A DNA stretch of 64,000 bases from Haloferax massiliensis (lineage in GTDB: Archaea > Halobacteriota > Halobacteria > Halobacteriales > Haloferacaceae): contig NZ_CSTE01000002.1 in assembly GCF_001368915.1 (NCBI RefSeq), positions 1,337,737-1,401,736 on the forward strand, in the 5' to 3' direction. The notes below the pieces were generated by a model that saw only the letters and a list, made by a program, of their open reading frames with translations, was not told where the DNA came from and searched no databases. The first letter of the stretch is position 1; every line of letters begins with the position of its first letter. This document shows, in pieces, positions 28,111-39,383 of this stretch. A program made the translations under genes and the position numbers.

Positions 28111-29007
28111 TCAGTCGCCGTCCGCTCGGTACGCGTCGATTGCCGCCCGGTAACCCTGCCGATACGTCGGATACGCGAACGAATAGCCGAGTTCGCGGAG
28201 GTAGTCGTTCGAACAGCGCTTGCTCGTCAGAATGCGGCGACGGGCGGCCTCCGAGAGGTCGCCGTCGGCGAGGCGCTCTTCCTTCGTGCGCTTTTCGGGG
28301 CGCGGGACGCCGCACTCGTCGGCCAGCCAGTCGGCGAACGCGTGTTTCGAGACGGGTTCGTCGTCGACGACGAGGACGGTGTCGTCGCGGGCGCGGCCGG
28401 TTTCGAGGAGGTACGCGACGACGCCCGCGGCGTCGTCCCGGTGGACCATGTTGAGATAGCCCGCCGTGACCGGGCCGTTCAGGTAGCGGTCGAGTCGGTA
28501 GCGGTCCGGACCGTAGAGCCCGGCGAACCGGGTGACGGTCCCCTCGATTCCGCGCTCTGCGGCGTGCTCGCGAGCGACGCGCTCGGCCTCGGCGAGGACG
28601 CGCGTCTTGTCGGTCGTCGGGTCCAGCGGCGTCGACTCGTCGACGAAGTCGCCGCCGTGGTCGCCGTAGACCCCCGTGCTCGACGTGTAGACGAGTCGCT
28701 CGGGCGGCGAATCGCGGCCGGCGAACTGGTCGATTGCCGTTCGGAGTCCCTCGACGAAGACGGTGCGGGCGGCGTCGGCCCCGCGGCCGCCGGAACTCGC
28801 GGCGAAGACGACGTGGTCCACGTCGGGGACCCCCCCGAGGGAGTCGGCGTCGGTCACGTCGGCGCGAACCGCTTCCGCGCCGGTCGCTTCGACGGCGTCG
28901 AGACCGTCGTCCGAGCGGCGGACGCCCCACACGTCGTGGCCGTCGGCGACGAGCGTGCGGGCGAGTTCGAGGCCGACGTAGCCGCAACCGAGGACGGCGA
29001 CTCTCAT
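28111..29007 (-). CDS. NAD(P)-dependent epimerase/dehydratase-type SDR
   Basis: 298 residues. Extended short-chain dehydrogenase: glycine motif VAVLGCGYVGLELARTL at the N-terminus, VVFAASSGGRG, and active-site YTSSTGVYGDHGG (Ser/Tyr as in SDRs) near residue 115, FAGLYGPDRY, and MVHRDDAAGVVAYLL. It resembles YeeZ/WcaG-like nucleotide-sugar or unspecified dehydratases. The substrate is unknown. ATGA overlap with the DUF5791-like gene upstream indicates coupled translation. Confidence 0.85.
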   Translation of the reverse strand: MRVAVLGCGYVGLELARTLVADGHDVWGVRRSDDGLDAVEATGAEAVRADVTDADSLGGVPDVDHVVFAASSGGRGADAARTVFVEGLRTAIDQFAGRDSPPERLVYTSSTGVYGDHGGDFVDESTPLDPTTDKTRVLAEAERVAREHAAERGIEGTVTRFAGLYGPDRYRLDRYLNGPVTAGYLNMVHRDDAAGVVAYLLETGRARDDTVLVVDDEPVSKHAFADWLADECGVPRPEKRTKEERLADGDLSEAARRRILTSKRCSNDYLRELGYSFAYPTYRQGYRAAIDAYRADGD

Positions 29008-29423
29008 CGCTCGTTTCGGACGGCGATGACGTGGTGGATGGCGGCCAGTTCGTTCAGCGTGGCGGCGGTGCGGCCCTCGATGGCCTGTTGAATCTCCTGT
29101 CCGGAGAGGTCGAGGTCGACCTCGGACGCGAGCGTGTCCACGTCGAGGATGCCGCTCGTCATACCCATGAGGAGGTGGTCGCGGAACTCCCAGACGATGG
29201 CGTCGGCGTCGGGGTTGCCGTCGGCGAGTTCGAGGACCGCGGCGGCCTGTTCGAGCGTGAGGTCCAACACGCCGTTCGACAGCGCGGCCTCCGAGACGCC
29301 GGCGGCCTCGGCGGCCGTCTCCGGTCCTGCGGCGTCGACTGCGCGGCGAATCTCGTCCTCGTAGGCGGCCCGCAACTCGTCGGCCGAGAGGGTTCCGGGC
29401 TTCGCGGCGGCGTCGTGCAACAT
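29004..29423 (-). CDS. Uncharacterised haloarchaeal protein (DUF5791-like)
   Basis: 139 residues, acidic and helical. Two halves both look like small helical domains with LSADELRAAYEDEIRRAVD and SEAALSNGVLDLTLEQAAAVLELADG. The latter resembles a helix-turn-helix of the Cro/XRE type, where TAAEAAGVSEAALSNGVLDLT would be the recognition region. The C-terminus IEGRTAATLNELAAIHHVIAVRNER is also helical. A DNA-binding role is possible but not established. First gene of a pair with the epimerase (ATGA overlap). Confidence 0.8.
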   Translation of the reverse strand: MLHDAAAKPGTLSADELRAAYEDEIRRAVDAAGPETAAEAAGVSEAALSNGVLDLTLEQAAAVLELADGNPDADAIVWEFRDHLLMGMTSGILDVDTLASEVDLDLSGQEIQQAIEGRTAATLNELAAIHHVIAVRNER

Positions 29424-29480
29424 ACACGCGGGTTCGGCGTTCCGGCGGCAAAACGGTTGCCACTCGGGTCGTATTGGCGG

Positions 29481-31972
29481 CTACTCCTCGGGAGGGCAGT
29501 CGGCCGCGACGGTGCAGCCCGGTCCTCCCTGCCACCCCTCGGAGCGCTCGTCCGCGTTGCCGTCGATGTCGCCGACGCCGACGCCCGACGGCGGGACTGC
29601 GACGACGATTGGCGTCCGCACCTCGAACGAAACGCGGTCGCCGCGGCCGACCGTCTCGGCGACGCCGTCGCCGTCCCAGTCGAGGGCGACGGGCGACCCG
29701 TCGCGGGCGTACGTGAGCGACTCCGTGTCGCCGCGGGCGTGGACGCGGAACTGCGCGAACTCGCCGGCGACCGCCACGTCCCAGACGTTGACCGTCGCGT
29801 ACCAGGAGCCGGGGACGGGCGCGACCGGCATCCCGGCGGGGACGCGCTTGAACGGCGTGTCGAACCGCGAGTCGAGCGTGTCGTTCAGGCGGTCGGCGAC
29901 CGCGTCCTCGGTGGCGTTCATCGCCGCGTCGGTCGCCACGTCGGCGACGGCCTGCTGACGGGCGGTTCGCGTCGTCTCGACCGTCCGGTTCGTGAGCCGC
30001 TGTGGGACCGTCGTCGAGCGGTCTCGGCGGACGGTTCTGAACGCCACGTCGAGGCGGCGTTCGAGGAGGTCGGCCTCGACGGTTCCCGGGGCGGCCGCCT
30101 CGACGGCGATTGCGCGCGCCGCGGAGCCGTTCGTAATCGCCAGCGCCCGGTGAGCGGGGTCATCCCACGCGCCGAGCGAGCGCTCCAGAATCCGTTGGCG
30201 CTCCGTCACGGAGTGATTGGTGTGGTCGCGAAGCGTGTGGCGGGCGGCCGTCTCCGCGGGAACGACCGACCGGTCGACCGCGGTTTCGAGCCGGTCGCGT
30301 CTGTCGGCGAGCGTCTCGTTCGTCCCGTTCGTGTTTTCGAGCGTCGAGTCGGCCGCGAGGAGCGTGCGGGCCGCGACGCGAAGCGGGACGCGGCGGTTCG
30401 AGCCGAACACCGGTTCGAGAACGGTGTCGGCGGCGTCGCCGTAGGGGAGCGTAAACAGGTTGGTGTTGCGGGCGACGAGCGGGTGATAGGTGCCGCCGCG
30501 GGCGACCGTCGGGACCGAAGCGCCGTCGAGGCCGCCGAGCGAGAGGTACATCGGGTCCGCGTCGGGGACGAACCTGACGCCGCTTTCGTTGGCAGTTCCG
30601 TTCGCGCCGTCGGCTCGCGAGTCACCGAGCGCCGCGCGGGCGACCTCCTCGGCGCGGACCGCCTCCGAGAGCGACCCGAAGTCCGCGTCCCTGCTCGCGT
30701 TGTTGGCCGCGTCGCTCGCCGCCGCGGTCTGGTTCGCCCGGCGGTCGAGCGTCGCCAGCACGCGGTCGAGGTAGGTCGCGCGAACCGCGACGCGCGTCCG
30801 GTCCGCGACGCCGTCGTAGGCGGCCGGTGCGCCCACGAGGTCCCGGCGGTCGGCGCGGAGGTCGGCCGCGAGTTCCGCGGCGAGATTCACCTCGCCCGCG
30901 GCGACTCGCCGTGCGGACGCCGTCACGCGCCGGTCTCTGACCCGGTCGGCGAGCGCGACGAGGTCCGAGCGAACCCAGCGGTCGAGACCAGATGCCATCG
31001 GCGCGGTCGCCTGCCGCGGCTCGGGCGGGTTGCCGGTCGCAACGTCGCAGGCGATATCGTCGAAGCCGCCGCGCGTCACGACCATGTCGGCGGCCGCGTC
31101 GGCGGCCGCGGCGAAGTTCTCGCCGTCGAGCGCGCCGCCGGGGGTACTCGCGGGGTCGATGGGGCGCACGGGGGCGGAGACGGCGGCCGGGTCGACGACG
31201 GCCGCGAGGTCGACGCGCGTCCTCGTCTCCGTCCGCGCTTCGGTCTGGAGCGTCTCGTTGCCCCGACGGAACGTCCGAGTGGTCGTCTCGACCGTCGTCA
31301 CGATGCGGGAGCCGGCGTCGACGACGACGGTGTCGGCTTCGACCGCCGGCGTTCTCGTCGGGACCGTCTCGGCCGACGACGACGTGTCGGTCGAGATGCT
31401 GACGAGCGTCCACCCGCGTCCGGAGTTCTCCGGCGGGTCTTCGGTCCGGGAGAGAACGTCCGTCTCGGTCTCGATTTCGACCGCGGCGCGGTGGGCGTCC
31501 GCGACCACGTCGTCGTAGGCCGGCGCGTCGCCGCGGCCGTCAAGGAATCCGACCAGCGCGTGGTCGGCGGCGGAGCCGACGGAGGCGTTGATGGTCCGGT
31601 TCGTCGGTATCTCGCTCGCGGCCGACTCCGCGGCCGGGTTCGGTGCTGGAAGCGCGTTCGCCAGTTCGGGCGCGGCCGGAAAGCGCGTGGTCGGCGGCGG
31701 AGCCGACGGAGGCGTTGATGGTCCGGTTCGTCGGTATCTCGCTCGCGGCCGACTCCGCGGCCGGGTTCGGTGCTGGAAGCGCGTTCGCCAGTTCGGGCGC
31801 GGCCGGAACGCCGGTCTGCGCGGTCCATCGCGTCGTCGACGCGGCGGTCGGCCACGGGGTCGTGGCCGGCGAGCGCGCCGGAGAACGTCGCGCTCCCGAC
31901 GAGCAGTAACACGCCGAGCAGGGCGAAGGGAACCCGGCCCCGGTCGTCGTCGGCGAGCCTCACGGCGACCAC
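29481..31972 (-). pseudogene. DUF7286-like pilus-cluster protein, frame disrupted by a 127-bp tandem duplication
   Basis: The 5' part from ATG 31972 encodes a signal/membrane segment (VPFALLGVLLLVGSATF) and 57 good residues. The rest, about 690 residues to the stop at 29481, continues in another frame. Between them lie two perfect 127-bp tandem copies (31555-31808). 127 is not a multiple of three, so the copies are read in different frames. The long C-terminal part is a secreted-looking protein rich in Ala/Arg/Thr with NxT/S sequons and ends EGWQGGPGCTVAADCPPEE. Removing one copy does not by itself join the frames; a second small indel near 31820 or a third copy would be needed. The start overlaps the previous gene by 13 nt. 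Confidence 0.8.
31555..31808. repeat. Perfect 127-bp tandem duplication
   Basis: Copy 1 is 31555-31681 and copy 2 is 31682-31808; they are identical base for base by eye and directly adjacent. The unit encodes, in its good frame on the minus strand, PELANALPAPNPAAES and following residues up to SAADHA. The repeat lies inside the DUF7286-like gene and breaks its reading frame. Confidence 0.93.
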
Positions 31973-32844
31973 GTCCTGACGACGACGGTGACGCGCCCCA
32001 CTGAGACCGCCTCGGCGGCGGCGCGCGGGGTGTCGTACCGGTCGCGCATCGTCTCGGCGAACCGCGGGTTCAGCGCCGCCGCGAGGTCGGCGTTGGCGGC
32101 GCGGGTCTCCTCGCGGGCGACCTCGGGCGCGACGGAGGCCCCCGCCAGCGCGCCGGTCCGCTCGTACCGATGGGTCATCAGCGTCGACACCGGCTCGTCG
32201 CCGCGGAGCGCGAGCCGGGCGAGCGCCGGCGGGAACAGCCCGGCGACGGTCCGGTTTGCGACGAGCCGAGCGACGGCGTCGAAGCCGTCATCGCTTGCGG
32301 CGAGCGCGTCTTCCCGGGCGGCGGGGAACCCGCTCGGCACGTCGAGCGTCGCGGAGTGAACCGTCGCCGAGGACGGCGGCGCGGGACCGAGGGTGTCGTT
32401 CGCACGGACGGACGAACCGGGGAACGGCGTCCACGAGACGGCGACGGAGACGCCGCGGGTCGGGAGTTCGGAGGCGACGCGGGCGGCGGTCCGCTTCCGG
32501 AAGTCGTCGCGGGCGCGGGTCACGCGAGCGCCCTCGACGGTGACCGCGCCGAGCGTCGCGCGGGCGAGGAGTCCGGCGAGACTGCCGTGGGCGGTCCGTT
32601 CGAGTTCGCGGGGGTCGACGCCGTCGGCATCGAGCAACGACGCGTCGGCCGCGTCGACGCCGGGGGCGAGCGAGTAGTCGACCGTCGCGGTGCTCGTCGC
32701 CAGCGACGAGGCGACCCCGTCGGCGTCGACCGCGGCATCGCCGCCGAGGCCGGTGTCAGCGCCGGCGTCCGCGGTGACGACGAGGCCGATGCTCGCGCTC
32801 ACGAGAAGCAGACACACCGTCACGTCGAAGACGAGGTCGGTCAT
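31960..32844 (-). CDS. DUF7284-like pilus-cluster protein
   Basis: 294 residues from ATG 32844, which overlaps the stop of the DUF7285-like gene (ATGA). A GTG two codons upstream is possible. A single N-terminal membrane helix (FDVTVCLLLVSASIGLVVTADAG) after a short charged start resembles a pilin-like or signal-anchor N-terminus. The rest should be extracytoplasmic: Ala/Asp/Arg-rich, with LDVPSGFPAAREDALAASDDGFDAVARLVANRTVAG. The function is unknown, but the family travels with PilB/PilC-type secretion genes in haloarchaea. It looks intact, unlike its neighbours. Confidence 0.75.
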   Translation of the reverse strand: MTDLVFDVTVCLLLVSASIGLVVTADAGADTGLGGDAAVDADGVASSLATSTATVDYSLAPGVDAADASLLDADGVDPRELERTAHGSLAGLLARATLGAVTVEGARVTRARDDFRKRTAARVASELPTRGVSVAVSWTPFPGSSVRANDTLGPAPPSSATVHSATLDVPSGFPAAREDALAASDDGFDAVARLVANRTVAGLFPPALARLALRGDEPVSTLMTHRYERTGALAGASVAPEVAREETRAANADLAAALNPRFAETMRDRYDTPRAAAEAVSVGRVTVVVRTWSP

Positions 32845-33233
32845 CGCCACACCTCGACGCGGAGCGTTCCGAAGCGGACGCGTCCGGGTTCGGCGCGGAC
32901 GGTGACCCGAGTCGAGTCGGCGTCGGCGTCGGCGGGCGCGTCGGGACCGACGGCGCGGCGGTCGTCGTCGATTGCGACGACGACGCGGCAGGAAAAGCCG
33001 TCAGGACAGGCGTCGCGGGCGTCCGAGAGCCGCGAGACGACGACGACGCCGGAGTCGTCCGCGAGGGCGGACTCGACGTTCGACAGCGCGGCGGGCGCGA
33101 GGTCGCGGTCGGCGGTCGGCAACGAGTCGTCGAGCACCGTCGCGTAGCACGAAATCGCCGCGCAGACGACGAACAGCGCGGTGAGTGCGGCGACGGGCGA
33201 GGTCTGCGCCCTACGCCGAGACGACGGTGACAT
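32841..33233 (-). CDS. DUF7285-like small pilus-cluster protein
   Basis: 130 residues from ATG 33233. N-terminus MSPSSRRRAQTSPVAALTALFVVCAAISCYATVL is a basic stretch plus one membrane helix, typical of minor pilins or pseudopilins in haloarchaeal Tad-like clusters. The remainder is a small beta-rich domain ending LRVEVWR, with Cys in DACPDGFSCRV. It overlaps the C-terminal remnant of the DUF7283-like gene at its 5' end. The same frame is open upstream into the truncated pilC, so a chimeric product is conceivable. Confidence 0.75.
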   Translation of the reverse strand: MSPSSRRRAQTSPVAALTALFVVCAAISCYATVLDDSLPTADRDLAPAALSNVESALADDSGVVVVSRLSDARDACPDGFSCRVVVAIDDDRRAVGPDAPADADADSTRVTVRAEPGRVRFGTLRVEVWR

Positions 33234-33352
33234 CCGTTCCCTCCCAGTTGACGTGGCGGACGACGAGCAGTTCGCCGGCGGGTCGCCACGAGGCGTCCCG
33301 GTCGCGTGCGGTCTCGGCCGCGGCGGCGAACGCGGCGGGCGAGTCGAAAGCG
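33211..33352 (-). pseudogene. C-terminal remnant of a DUF7283-like gene
   Basis: Only about 46 residues survive: AFDSPAAFAAAAETARDRD then ASWRPAGELLVVRHVNWEGTDVTVVSA and stop. This matches the end of a DUF7283-type protein (family ending ..WR..NRTVVVRxVxYxGxxVTLVTA, from memory). No start codon or N-terminal anchor precedes it; the sequence upstream belongs to pilC in a different frame. The junction is at about 33345-33356. Confidence 0.65.
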
Positions 33353-33809
33353 GGTCGTCGCCGCCGCGCGCGGCGAACGCGCTGGCCCGCTCGACCGAGG
33401 GCTCGATACGCATCCGAAGCGCGATGCGGCCGACGAGTTCCGGCGCGTTCCCGAGCGCCCGCGTCCGGCGGAGCGTCGCCAGCCAGACGGGGAGCGTGTG
33501 GACCGCGTGGGTCGCGCCGAGCGCGGCCGCGAGCGCGACGAAGACGACCGTGACGGTCGGGAGCCGAGCGACGAGGGCGACGAGTCCGCCGAGCAGTCCG
33601 GCGGGGAGCGCCGCGCCGTAGCCCGCGGCGACGACCGTCTCGGAGGGGAGGTCCGAGTCGAGAAACGCCAGCGACCGTTTGAGGTCGTCGCTCGGCTCGG
33701 CGTCGATGGAGTCGGGCGAGAGCCGCGCGAGCGTCGTCGCGGCCGCGTGGGCCAACCGGGACGCATCGGAGTCCGCGCCCGCGCTCGCGGCCGTGTCCGG
33801 ACTCAGCAT
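33353..33809 (-). pseudogene. pilC: PilC/TadC-like membrane protein, 3'-truncated
   Basis: About 150 residues from ATG 33809, which closely follows the pilB stop at 33803. It keeps the N-terminal region of haloarchaeal PilC (ARLSPDSIDAEPSDDLKRSLAFLDSDL, then one or two membrane helices GLLGGLVALVARLPTVTVVFVALAAALG and the start of the cytoplasmic domain LVGRIALRMRIEPSVERASAFAARGGDDP). Everything after this is missing; family members have several hundred residues more, with further helices. The reading frame continues through the DUF7283 remnant out of frame and enters DUF7285 in frame, so a 322-residue chimeric ORF is open. Confidence 0.75.
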
Positions 33810-34656
33810 CCCGAACCACGCTCCGCGCGGGCCGCGGCGAGGTCGTCTGGAGCCGTCCGTTCCGTCTCGGCGAGCGAGGCGAGGTGGGCGGCGCGGGCGT
33901 CGAGCGCGTCGAGCACGTCCGCGTACGACTCGCCGGGGCGTGCGAGCGACTCGACCCCGAGGCTGTCGCCGCGCGCGACCGACCCCGTCGGTTCGAGCGC
34001 GCGCCCGTCGTGTTCGAACAGCGTCTCGAACGCCGCGTCGTCGCCGACGGGGCGGACCTCCTCGACTCGGGCGACGCGGTGTGCGTCCGCGTGCTCGCAA
34101 GTGACGACGAGGTCGGTGGCGGCGAACGACGACGCCGGGACGTCGAGGTCGGAGACGACGCGCTCGCGCACGTCGGCGGCTCCGTCGCCGTGGATGGTTC
34201 CGAGGACCGCGTTGGCGTTCGCGCCGACGCGCATCGCCTCGTAGAGGACGGCGGCCTCCTCGCCCCGGACTTCGCCGAGCGCGAGCGCGCCGTCACCCAA
34301 TCGGAGCGCCGCGTGGAGCGCCTCCTGCGGCGTCGGCTCCGGGCCGCCGGTCGTGTCGGTTCGGAGCGTCTGCACGTCGCGGTCGGCGTCCAGCAGGCTC
34401 GACGCCGGGAGCTCCGGCGTGTCCTCGATGAGCACCGTGCGAACGTCGCGGGGGAGTTCCCACAAAAGCGAGCCGAGGAACGTCGTCTTGCCGGCTCCGC
34501 GAGAGCCGGCGACGAGGACCGACGCGCCGCGTTCGACCGCGAGCGAGCAGAGCGCCGCGGCGTCGGCCGACAGCGTCCCGTTGGCGACGAGCGCGGGGAG
34601 CGTCAGCGGCGTCTCGTCGTGGCGGCGGAACGCGAAGCCGAGCCCGTCGCTGGCGG
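33803..34656 (-). pseudogene. pilB: PilB-type secretion ATPase, N-terminal half missing
   Basis: About 284 residues of the C-terminal ATPase domain: SDGLGFAFRRHDETPLTLP, Walker A AGSRGAGKTTFLGSLLWELP, Asp box VLIEDTPELP, Walker B ALALGEVRGEEAAVLYEAM, His box VLGTIHGDGAADVRERV. All nucleotide-binding elements look intact. The usual N-terminal domain (200 or more residues) is absent; the frame runs upstream into low-complexity text with no proper start. At about 34650-34660 the sequence switches to a DUF7311-like gene in another frame. It would power pilus or secretion assembly if complete; as is, it is likely non-functional. Confidence 0.8.
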
Positions 34657-34821
34657 CGTCGGGTCTTCCGCCGCCGCAAGCGCCGTCGCGGCGTGCGCGA
34701 TGTCGTCGGCCATCGAGCCGATTTTCACCGTCGTCGCGTCCGTTCGGGCCGCGTCGGCCGCCGGGAAGACGACGCCCGCGATGGCGACCGCGAGGAGACA
34801 CGCGAGGACGACGCGAATCAC
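34657..34821 (-). pseudogene. DUF7311-like gene, 3'-truncated
   Basis: Starts with GTG at 34821 overlapping the previous stop (GTGA). It codes for a signal-peptide-like N-terminus IRVVLACLLAVAIAGVVFPAADA and about 30 further residues (DATTVKIGSMADDIAHAATALAAAEDPTPP), after which the sequence becomes the interior of pilB read in the wrong frame, with a stop at 34603. The C-terminal part of the protein is missing. Confidence 0.65.
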
Positions 34822-35193
34822 AGCGCGTCGCGGAGGCGAGCGGCCAGTCCGCGGTCGGTGGGGTCGTCGCGCGAACCGGAGGTATCGTTCCGGGAGTCGC
34901 CGGCGCGGGAGTCGGGAGCGACGTGAGAATCGCGACCGGCGCGAACGGCGGTCCCGGCCGTCTCGTCACGCCGAGGAGAATCGTCGTACGCGCCATCGGC
35001 TTGCCCGGCGGGCGACGTCGCCGCGTCCGTGGCGAGCGCGTCGGCCGTGCGGTCCGCCGCGGGCGACGCCGTCTCGTCGACGAGTTCCGATTCGAGCGAC
35101 TCGGCCTTGGCGAGCGCGGCGTTCGCCCGGCGCTCGACGTCCTCGTTGACCGCGGTCGGCAGCGGCGTCGCGGCGAGTCGGGTCGGTCGTCAT
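34818..35193 (-). pseudogene. DUF7310-like coiled-coil gene, internally deleted
   Basis: The first codons from ATG 35193 (MTTDPTR) are in one frame. The remaining 115 or so residues (AVNEDVERRANAALAKAESLES onward to GLAARLRDAL and stop at 34818) are in another frame with no start codon of their own. The 376-nt span is not a multiple of three. The expected N-terminal coiled-coil of about 80 residues is not present. This suggests an internal deletion joining codon 6-7 to the second half of the gene. Confidence 0.6.
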
Positions 35194-35314
35194 GGACCGG
35201 CGTGGTCCCGCCATCCGTGATAAAGCTCCGGGGCGAGGGCCGATTCGAACGGTCGGGTGAGCCAACATTCCACATGTGAGGAATGTTCAAGGTGACAGCC
35301 CGAGTGAATCATGT

Positions 35315-36397
35315 ATGAAAACCGTCCTGATTGGTGTGGGACAGGCGGGCGGGAAGCTCACGTCGGCCCTCCAGTCGTTCGACCGGCGGATGGGGTTCGG
35401 CGCGGTGCTCGACGCGGTCGCGGTGAACACCGCGAGAGCCGACCTCCAGTCGCTTCCGGTCGAGACCGTGCTCATCGGCCAAGACCGCGTCAGCGGGCAC
35501 GGCGTCGGCGGCGACAACGAACTCGGAGCCGAGGTCATGGAGTCGGACCAGACCGAGGTCATGTCTGCCCTCGACGGCCGCGTGACGGCCGAAGCGGAGT
35601 CGATTTTCGTCGTCGCCGGCCTCGGCGGCGGCTCCGGCTCGGGCGGCGCGCCCGTCCTCGCGAAGGCGCTCGCCCGCGTCTACGACGTGCCGGTGTACGT
35701 CCTCGGAATCCTGCCCGGACGGGACGAGGGGGCGATGTATCAGGTGAACGCCGGCCGGTCGCTCAAGACCGTCGCCCGCGAGGCCGACGCCGTCCTCCTC
35801 GTCGACAACGACGCCTTCCGGTCGTCCGGCGAGTCGATGAGCGAGGGCTACGACGCCATCAACGAGGCCATCGCTCGCCGCGTGGGCCTGCTCCTCGCGG
35901 CCGGCGAGGCGACCGAGGGCGTCGGCGAGAGCGTCGTCGACAGCTCCGAGGTCATCAACACCCTCCGTTCCGGAGGTATCGCCGCGCTCGGATACGCGAG
36001 CGCCGAGGCCTCCCCGAACGCCGAGGACAACATCAACGCGGTCATGAGCACGACCCGCAGCGCCGTCCTGACGGGCACGAGCCTGCCGGACGCGAGCGAC
36101 GCGGACTCCGCGCTCGTCGTCATCGCCGGGGAGCCCGACACCATCCCGCGGAAGGGCGTCGAGCGGGCGCGTCGCTGGGTCGAAGAGGAGACCGGCAGTC
36201 TGGAGGTCCGCGGCGGCGACTTCCCGCTTGAGAGCGGCCGAATCGCGTCGCTCGTCCTCCTCGGCGGCGTCGAGCGCTCCGAGCGGGTCGAGTCGTTCAT
36301 GGAGCGCGCCCGAGAGGCCATCGACCGGGCGAAGACCGAGACGCGAGCGGACCCCAAAGAGATGTGGCACAACGACGACCTCGACGACCTGCTGTGA
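35315..36397 (+). CDS. cetZ2: CetZ tubulin/FtsZ-superfamily cytoskeletal GTPase (probably CetZ2)
   Basis: 360 residues from ATG 35315 (TVLIGVGQAGGKLTSALQSF). An in-frame start at 35276 would add 13 unsupported residues. GTP-binding elements: N-terminal GVGQAGGK, the tubulin signature GLGGGSGSGGAPVLAKAL near residue 98, LPGRDEGAMYQVNAGRSLK, and the T7-like C-domain loop NAEDNINAVMS. CetZ proteins form dynamic cytoskeletal structures that control cell shape and motility in haloarchaea. The number 2 is from memory of gene order. It diverges from the decayed pilus cluster. A T6 tract at 36495-36500 may end its transcript. Confidence 0.9.
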   Translation: MKTVLIGVGQAGGKLTSALQSFDRRMGFGAVLDAVAVNTARADLQSLPVETVLIGQDRVSGHGVGGDNELGAEVMESDQTEVMSALDGRVTAEAESIFVVAGLGGGSGSGGAPVLAKALARVYDVPVYVLGILPGRDEGAMYQVNAGRSLKTVAREADAVLLVDNDAFRSSGESMSEGYDAINEAIARRVGLLLAAGEATEGVGESVVDSSEVINTLRSGGIAALGYASAEASPNAEDNINAVMSTTRSAVLTGTSLPDASDADSALVVIAGEPDTIPRKGVERARRWVEEETGSLEVRGGDFPLESGRIASLVLLGGVERSERVESFMERAREAIDRAKTETRADPKEMWHNDDLDDLL

Positions 36398-36494
36398 GCG
36401 CCGACGCGGTCGCTGCGGTCCGAACGACCACCGAGTGAGAGGTATCGAGGACGTTCGTCCAGCGATTCCGCGAGCATCGTCCAGTCTGCGAATG

Positions 36495-39076: not shown

Positions 39077-39383
39077 ACCTCACGGTATCCGAGACGAACC
39101 ATAAGAAGGTTCGTCTCTCACCCGGAGTTTGCGACGAGAGACGACGGATACGCGGCCGCTGTCGGAGAAAGCGGCGAATCTCTCCGGGCGATTTCGGGGC
39201 GCTGACACCGCCGAAGACCTGTCAGACGCGAATCAGGCCCGTCGGGGAGAACGACGCCACCGACGCCGGGCGCGCACTCCGACGGGGCGGTTCCAAACTG
39301 TCACTCGGCGAGACAGCCGGTCCGAGGCGGGGTGTGTCGGGCCGGGCGAAGGAGCGAAGTGCCGCGCGGGACAACGACAGGGC
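39077..39383. other. Intergenic region (307 nt) between divergent genes
   Basis: Apart from the inverted repeat and TATA box of the phosphodiesterase gene I see no clear feature. A plus-strand frame through it is Arg-rich and unlike a gene. The promoter of the DUF5788 gene is not obvious. Confidence 0.5.
39091..39117 (-). promoter_or_regulatory. 10-bp inverted repeat enclosing the TATA box of the phosphodiesterase gene
   Basis: GAGACGAACC (39091-39100), seven bases, GGTTCGTCTC (39108-39117); the arms are perfectly complementary. The seven-base spacer reads TTCTTAT on the minus strand and lies 27 nt before the ATG at 39076, the place of the TATA box. A protein dimer bound here would block TBP, so this is a strong operator candidate. 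Confidence 0.7.

Follow-up and report, generated by a model that had tools for sequence, protein, structure and literature searches.

The window considered here is a stretch of 64,000 nucleotides of the Haloferax massiliensis assembly (G000 in our numbering; 4,015,175 bases in 8 contigs), namely G000:C2:1337737-1401736. Beside the gene cetZ2 it carries a type IV pilus-like gene cluster with four apparent deletions, here called lesions A to D, and with a tandem duplication of 127 bases. Judged from the assembled sequence, the four "deletions" and the duplication beside cetZ2 are very probably errors of assembly and not losses from the cell, and the organism probably carries the whole pilB2/pilC2 regulon. 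An earlier note on this DNA had left the choice between loss of selection and systematic assembly collapse. We favor collapse because similar cuts are found in unrelated genes of this assembly, the cluster has the top content of guanine plus cytosine (GC) in 800 kb, sister drafts break their contigs in it, and the assembly is apparently one of short reads with closed gaps.

The region 28.5-37.5 kb of the window was read directly, its repeats were listed, and 14 further Haloferax genomes, numbered in the same way (G001 and so on), served for comparison of the cluster. Lesions were mapped with blastn, with window positions 29000-36400 as the query and 17 loci of 13 relatives as targets. Measured against G004, the absent DNA amounts to 701 bases at lesion A, 1728 at B, 1456 at C, and 259 at D (4,144 in total). 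This comparison with intact clusters, which the earlier note had suggested, thus gives about 4.1 kb absent at four near-blunt joins. The deletion-like joins that had been described in the DUF7310-position gene, at DUF7311/pilB, and at pilC/DUF7283 are present, and relatives hold extra DNA there. For DUF7286 a frame-breaking duplication had been reported; it exists as an exact 127-base tandem copy, but an adjoining deletion of about 701 bases had been overlooked. Here, after the second copy, the natural sequence continues for 9-12 bases and then jumps at join A. Two genes, DUF7284 and DUF7285, are whole, as had been said, with full-length Pfam matches.

The joins A, B, C, and D slide by only 3, 4, 3, and 0 bases, respectively, and the sequence shared at them is therefore near zero. 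Homologous recombination at direct repeats was considered for join B and rejected: the blastn overlaps of 17-65 bases at this place are imperfect similarity, and the slide is only 4 bases. The gene order of the kept pieces is collinear with that of 13 relatives.

The DNA that the cluster lacks was found in 13 of the 14 relatives. Nine of these have the cluster on one contig and hold extra DNA at all four lesions. The other four (G001, G002, G009, and G013) have it split over two contigs each, and extra DNA is present except at the genome's own contig break, which hides lesion B in G001 and lesion C in G009. For PilB, PilC, and DUF7286 alike, 12 of the 14 relatives have a full-length gene; the two others are in every case G007, which has no cluster, and one genome where the gene is split by a contig end (G009 for PilB, G001 for PilC, and G013 for DUF7286). 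Such full-length genes in relatives rule out a conserved minimal system. A genuine minimal pilus system built from short gene forms would agree with the whole or partly whole state of DUF7284, DUF7285, and the PilB ATPase core, yet the short forms, which we looked for, occur in none of the 14 other genomes, a sample drawn from outside this species. Together with the counts for PilB, PilC, and DUF7286, this makes the minimal system hardly credible at all.

In another alternative the lesions differ in origin: part of them would be gaps in the assembly, and one, most probably D, would reflect a true difference in length within a variable stretch of low complexity. Lesion D is the shortest, and no part of the cluster varies more than the one around its join, where the neighboring segment has 85% identity to G001 and several small indels. 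Nevertheless, a further 0.2-0.3 kb is present at D in every one of the 13 relatives with the cluster, and we regard the mixed case as extremely improbable.

If the cluster has been released from selection, then we can ask: How much damage has accumulated in the parts that are left? In the kept parts of PilB, PilC, DUF7283-7286, and DUF7311 there is no stop in the native frame and no frame-breaking indel away from the joins. Stops were scored in these parts but not in the DUF7310-position gene, where two 1-base indels compensate each other. Omega was computed for the kept parts against G001 and G002, and the values are given in that order. They are 0.09 and 0.14 for PilB, 0.22 and 0.19 for DUF7284, 0.20 and 0.12 for DUF7285, and 0.21 and 0.22 for cetZ2. 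Higher values were obtained for DUF7286 (0.41, 0.31) and PilC (0.40, 0.34), and also for DUF7283 (0.36, 0.74) and DUF7311 (0.51, 0.38), the last two on just 2-7 changes each. The relaxed selection that marks a pseudogene cluster is not seen in the kept parts. Old decay is ruled out by these undamaged remainders together with omega, which covers the time since G001 and G002 split off, and the earlier suggestion of loss of selection is not supported, as the kept parts examined have no further frameshift or stop.

Because omega reflects the history since that split, it leaves room for a very recent loss. In this account end-joining deletions and a slippage duplication, perhaps in culture, removed the pilB2/pilC2 system. 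Constraint measured against other species is compatible with it, the 0-4 bases shared at the joins also suit end joining, and G007, being without the cluster, suggests that cluster loss is possible in the genus. However, it would need four independent blunt events in 6 kb with no other damage; unrelated genes of G000 are cut alike, and the lesions coincide with the GC peak and with the contig ends of sister drafts, as described below. We therefore consider a real, very recent inactivation very improbable.

Similar cuts occur outside the cluster, in the genes that follow, and the earlier picture of lesions surrounded by intact core genes is not borne out once the rest of the assembly is considered. 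The CbiB gene (G000:C2 ~1545568) has lost residues 51-228 and is whole in 14 of 14 relatives. In an antiporter-type membrane subunit (G000:C2 ~1063594) the match ends at residue 527 of 648; all six matching relatives reach the end, and eight have no match at E 1e-60. The 2-oxoacid dehydrogenase E2 (G000:C2 ~1449132) keeps only residues 249-504 of 504. Nine relatives match it, seven of them at full length in one match, G008 at 143-504, and G007 as two pieces that overlap within a single open frame; five have no match at the same threshold. A fourth cut (G000:C2 ~1235355), seen against G001 alone, affects the ends of two convergent genes, one for an ABC-2 type permease and one for a FAD-binding oxidoreductase. 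The families of all these genes were assigned with Pfam. The same kind of cut is thus found in unrelated genes of G000 (CbiB, the antiporter-type subunit, and E2), and we know of nothing linking these or the permease and oxidoreductase genes to pili.

For a wider count, 800 kb of G000 were chained with 728 kb of G001 (C19 and C17). A missing segment was counted if it had 60 bases or more and if the join in the genome lacking it was near-blunt; pairs of pieces next to runs of N were left out. In the chained DNA, G000 is without 24 segments (9,143 bases) and G001 without 11 (4,308 bases); the 24 include lesions C and D and do not include A and B. GC content was compared for segments of at least 100 bases that could be measured, 17 for G000 and 9 for G001, with one G000 row (at G001 C17, 98962) dropped, whose overlapping pieces gave no segment. 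A GC content of at least 0.73 was found in 9 of the 17 segments absent from G000 versus 0 of the 9 absent from G001. Without C and D the counts are 7 of 15 versus 0 of 9 (Fisher p 0.022; Mann-Whitney p 0.023). A separate length difference lies outside the cluster at window positions 39239-39343, where 103 bases stand between well-matched stretches versus 983 in G001 C17; it is not a blunt join.

Among 5-kb windows over 800 kb of G000, the cluster ranks first by GC content (rank 1 of 751 windows), and the CbiB cut sits in the second GC island of these 800 kb. Of the seven closest drafts, four have contig ends within the cluster: G001 in segment B, G009 in segment C, and G002 and G013 elsewhere in it. 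Both signs of DNA that is hard for short reads, extreme composition and contig ends of other drafts, are therefore found here. We judge it very improbable that this strain, which was reported as the first halophilic archaeon to be isolated from the human gut, lost its cetZ2-linked pilus in a burst of blunt deletions that targeted its most GC-rich DNA and spared all that lies around it.

The record of the assembly agrees with collapse. The part of PMC5862939 available to us gives the Arc-Hr genome of Haloferax massiliense a size of 4,015,175 bp and 8 contigs, calls it "without gaps", and reports that it was obtained from a single MiSeq mate-pair library by SPAdes and then SSPACE, Opera, and GapFiller with manual refinement. 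From the shared size and contig number we infer that G000 is this published genome.

The same paper, in its species description, also gives a second genome size of 4,349,774 bp, which is 334,599 more than 4,015,175. Its coding share of 78.50% agrees with the larger size (3,414,159/4,349,774 by our own arithmetic). Later removal of gap letters is a possible cause and would explain the two sizes.

The 127-base copy has a likely technical counterpart. According to an excerpt of PMC5481147, the largest SPAdes k-mer is 127, and the ends of SPAdes contigs overlap. A copy of this length would fit unmerged contig ends, that is, two contigs that overlap by one k-mer and have been butted, and the stub that follows the second copy fits a dead end. 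Among the assembly details for Arc-Hr in the available part of PMC5862939, k = 127 is not named.

These observations can be arranged in a sequence of steps. First, a very GC-rich stretch may have drawn too few usable short reads, so that the assembly graph split. Scaffolding would then have ordered and oriented the pieces correctly, and an order collinear with relatives is what we observe. Next, the gaps would have been closed by butting contig ends; the joins indeed have 0-4 bases of ambiguity and no filler. At lesion A, finally, an overlap equal to the largest k-mer length may have been left unmerged, giving the 127-base tandem copy and the stub of 9-12 bases.

Several points weigh against assembly error. 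The evidence base consists of assembled sequences, not raw reads, the identity of G000 with Arc-Hr is only inferred, and PMC5862939, in its available part, gives 620-fold coverage for Arc-Hr. The GC threshold of 0.73 was chosen after the values had been seen, and 8 of the 15 off-cluster segments absent from G000 lie below it. Some G000/G001 differences are ordinary indels, G001 itself being without 11 segments. Within the cluster, as measured in G004, the GC contrast is small, 0.757 in missing versus 0.731 in retained DNA, and 100-base windows with GC of at least 0.80 make up 12 of 82 in missing versus 7 of 113 in retained DNA. Because this contrast is small, GC alone does not set the breakpoints. 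In 1.6 Mb of G000 C2 only one period-127 copy was found, with no recurrence of copies of k-mer length. Eight further tandem copies that are full and exact, with periods of 83-149, were met in the 1.6 Mb scanned, all in G000:C2:1-800000, and some of them look like natural repeats. The single period-127 copy makes the k-mer step weaker and leaves the gap reading unaffected; as stand-alone proof the k-mer signature was dropped for the same reason. In 728 kb of G001 there is no full exact tandem copy with a period of at least 80.

Tandem copies of other kinds were also met. The stretch G000:C2:1-800000 has, in addition, three near-full tandem copies, and several of the copies lie in coding DNA. 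The gene at G000:C2:360902-361672 (L190:902-1675), which from a sequence motif appears to be superoxide dismutase-like, has an internal tandem duplication of 51 residues with one base difference. It may be an artefact or a real variant and was kept out of the evidence, as dismutase copies of other drafts, G003 and G004 among them, give similarly irregular matches.

If G000 is Arc-Hr, studies of gene loss and of the pangenome that draw on this assembly would wrongly score the cetZ2-linked pilus, CbiB, the antiporter-type subunit, and E2 as broken. For the recognition of false decay a checklist can be drawn up: near-blunt joins, intact remainders, GC peaks, contig ends in sister drafts, and recurrence in unrelated genes. 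The features of the cluster are collected in Table 1.

Table 1. Genes, joins, and duplicated copies of the cluster beside cetZ2, in window positions.
Feature	Position	Strand	Remarks
DUF7286, kept C-terminal part	29481..31681	-	732 codons, native frame up to the duplication; listed open reading frame (ORF) 29481-31508
First copy, exact 127-base tandem duplication (lesion A)	31555..31681
Second copy, 127-base duplication	31682..31808		Likely unmerged contig-end overlap
Join A	31817..31820		About 701 bases of DUF7286 held by relatives absent
DUF7286, kept N-terminal start	31821..31972	-	About 50 residues
DUF7284, whole	31960..32850	-	296 amino acids; Pfam PF23955 1-278 of 278
DUF7285, whole	32841..33233	-	130 amino acids; Pfam PF23956 1-112 of 112
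DUF7283, kept C-terminal part	33211..33348	-	Pfam PF23954 99-142 of 142
Join B	33344..33348		About 1.73 kb absent: PilC C-terminal part and DUF7283 N-terminal part
PilC-position gene, kept N-terminal part	33349..33809	-	Residues 1 to about 167 by match
PilB (T2SSE ATPase), kept C-terminal part	33803..34656	-	Residues 376-660; Pfam PF00437
Join C	34653..34656		About 1.46 kb absent: PilB N-terminal part and DUF7311 C-terminal part
DUF7311, kept N-terminal part	34657..34821	-	55 codons; whole G004 homologue is Pfam PF23993
DUF7310-position gene, join D inside	34821..35193	-	Label of the earlier note; 214-amino-acid homologue in G001
Join D	35154..35155		About 0.26-0.27 kb absent inside the DUF7310-position gene
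cetZ2, whole	35315..36397	+	Pfam PF00091 and PF21011 on ORF 35276-36397; start at 35315 read from sequence

The listed ORF of DUF7286 matches positions 342-1000 of the 1000 of Pfam profile PF23957. The PilC-position gene gave no Pfam or NCBIfam match, neither for the part in the window nor for the whole G004 homologue; its name is taken from the regulon in the available part of PMC9856176, and its position and its conservation in 13 relatives fit. The name cetZ2 comes from the earlier note and agrees with the same regulon. The PilC homologue of G010 (G010:C18:605300-607045) matches along most of its length and has one in-frame TGA.

It remains to compare the cluster with what is known. A pattern of short-read gaps closed by joining contig ends, with unmerged overlaps of SPAdes contigs, is recognized in the near-blunt joins, the correct gene order, the GC peak, the exact 127-base repeat, and the unrelated genes that are hit; a point of difference is that a copy of 127 bases occurs just once in 1.6 Mb.

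Among the relatives, G007 offers a different case at the same chromosomal place. Here only 368 bases lie between the flanking matches (L056:380-1400; G007:C1 ~2779879-2780899). The C-terminal 28 residues of DUF7286 match in this remnant (E 7e-7), and it apparently also holds, as read from the letters, the head of the DUF7310-position gene. No PilC match was found in G007, and its PilB matches are paralogues only, at 31%. By the simplest account, one deletion likely took nearly the whole regulon beside cetZ2 and left these scars, which would be a true loss. In the G007 assembly the system is absent beside cetZ2, apparently through one deletion that left a 368-base scar, in contrast to the four separate cuts of G000.

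In the available part of PMC9856176, a type IV pilus-like pilB2/pilC2 regulon is described as adjoining cetZ2 in Haloferacales and Halobacteriales. The cluster of G000 resembles it: a PilB-type (T2SSE) ATPase gene adjoins the CetZ gene, and a putative membrane gene at the PilC position and the genes of DUF7283-7286 and DUF7311 are present beside cetZ2. It differs from the regulon of the relatives in that five genes, whole in them, are cut in G000 at the four joins.

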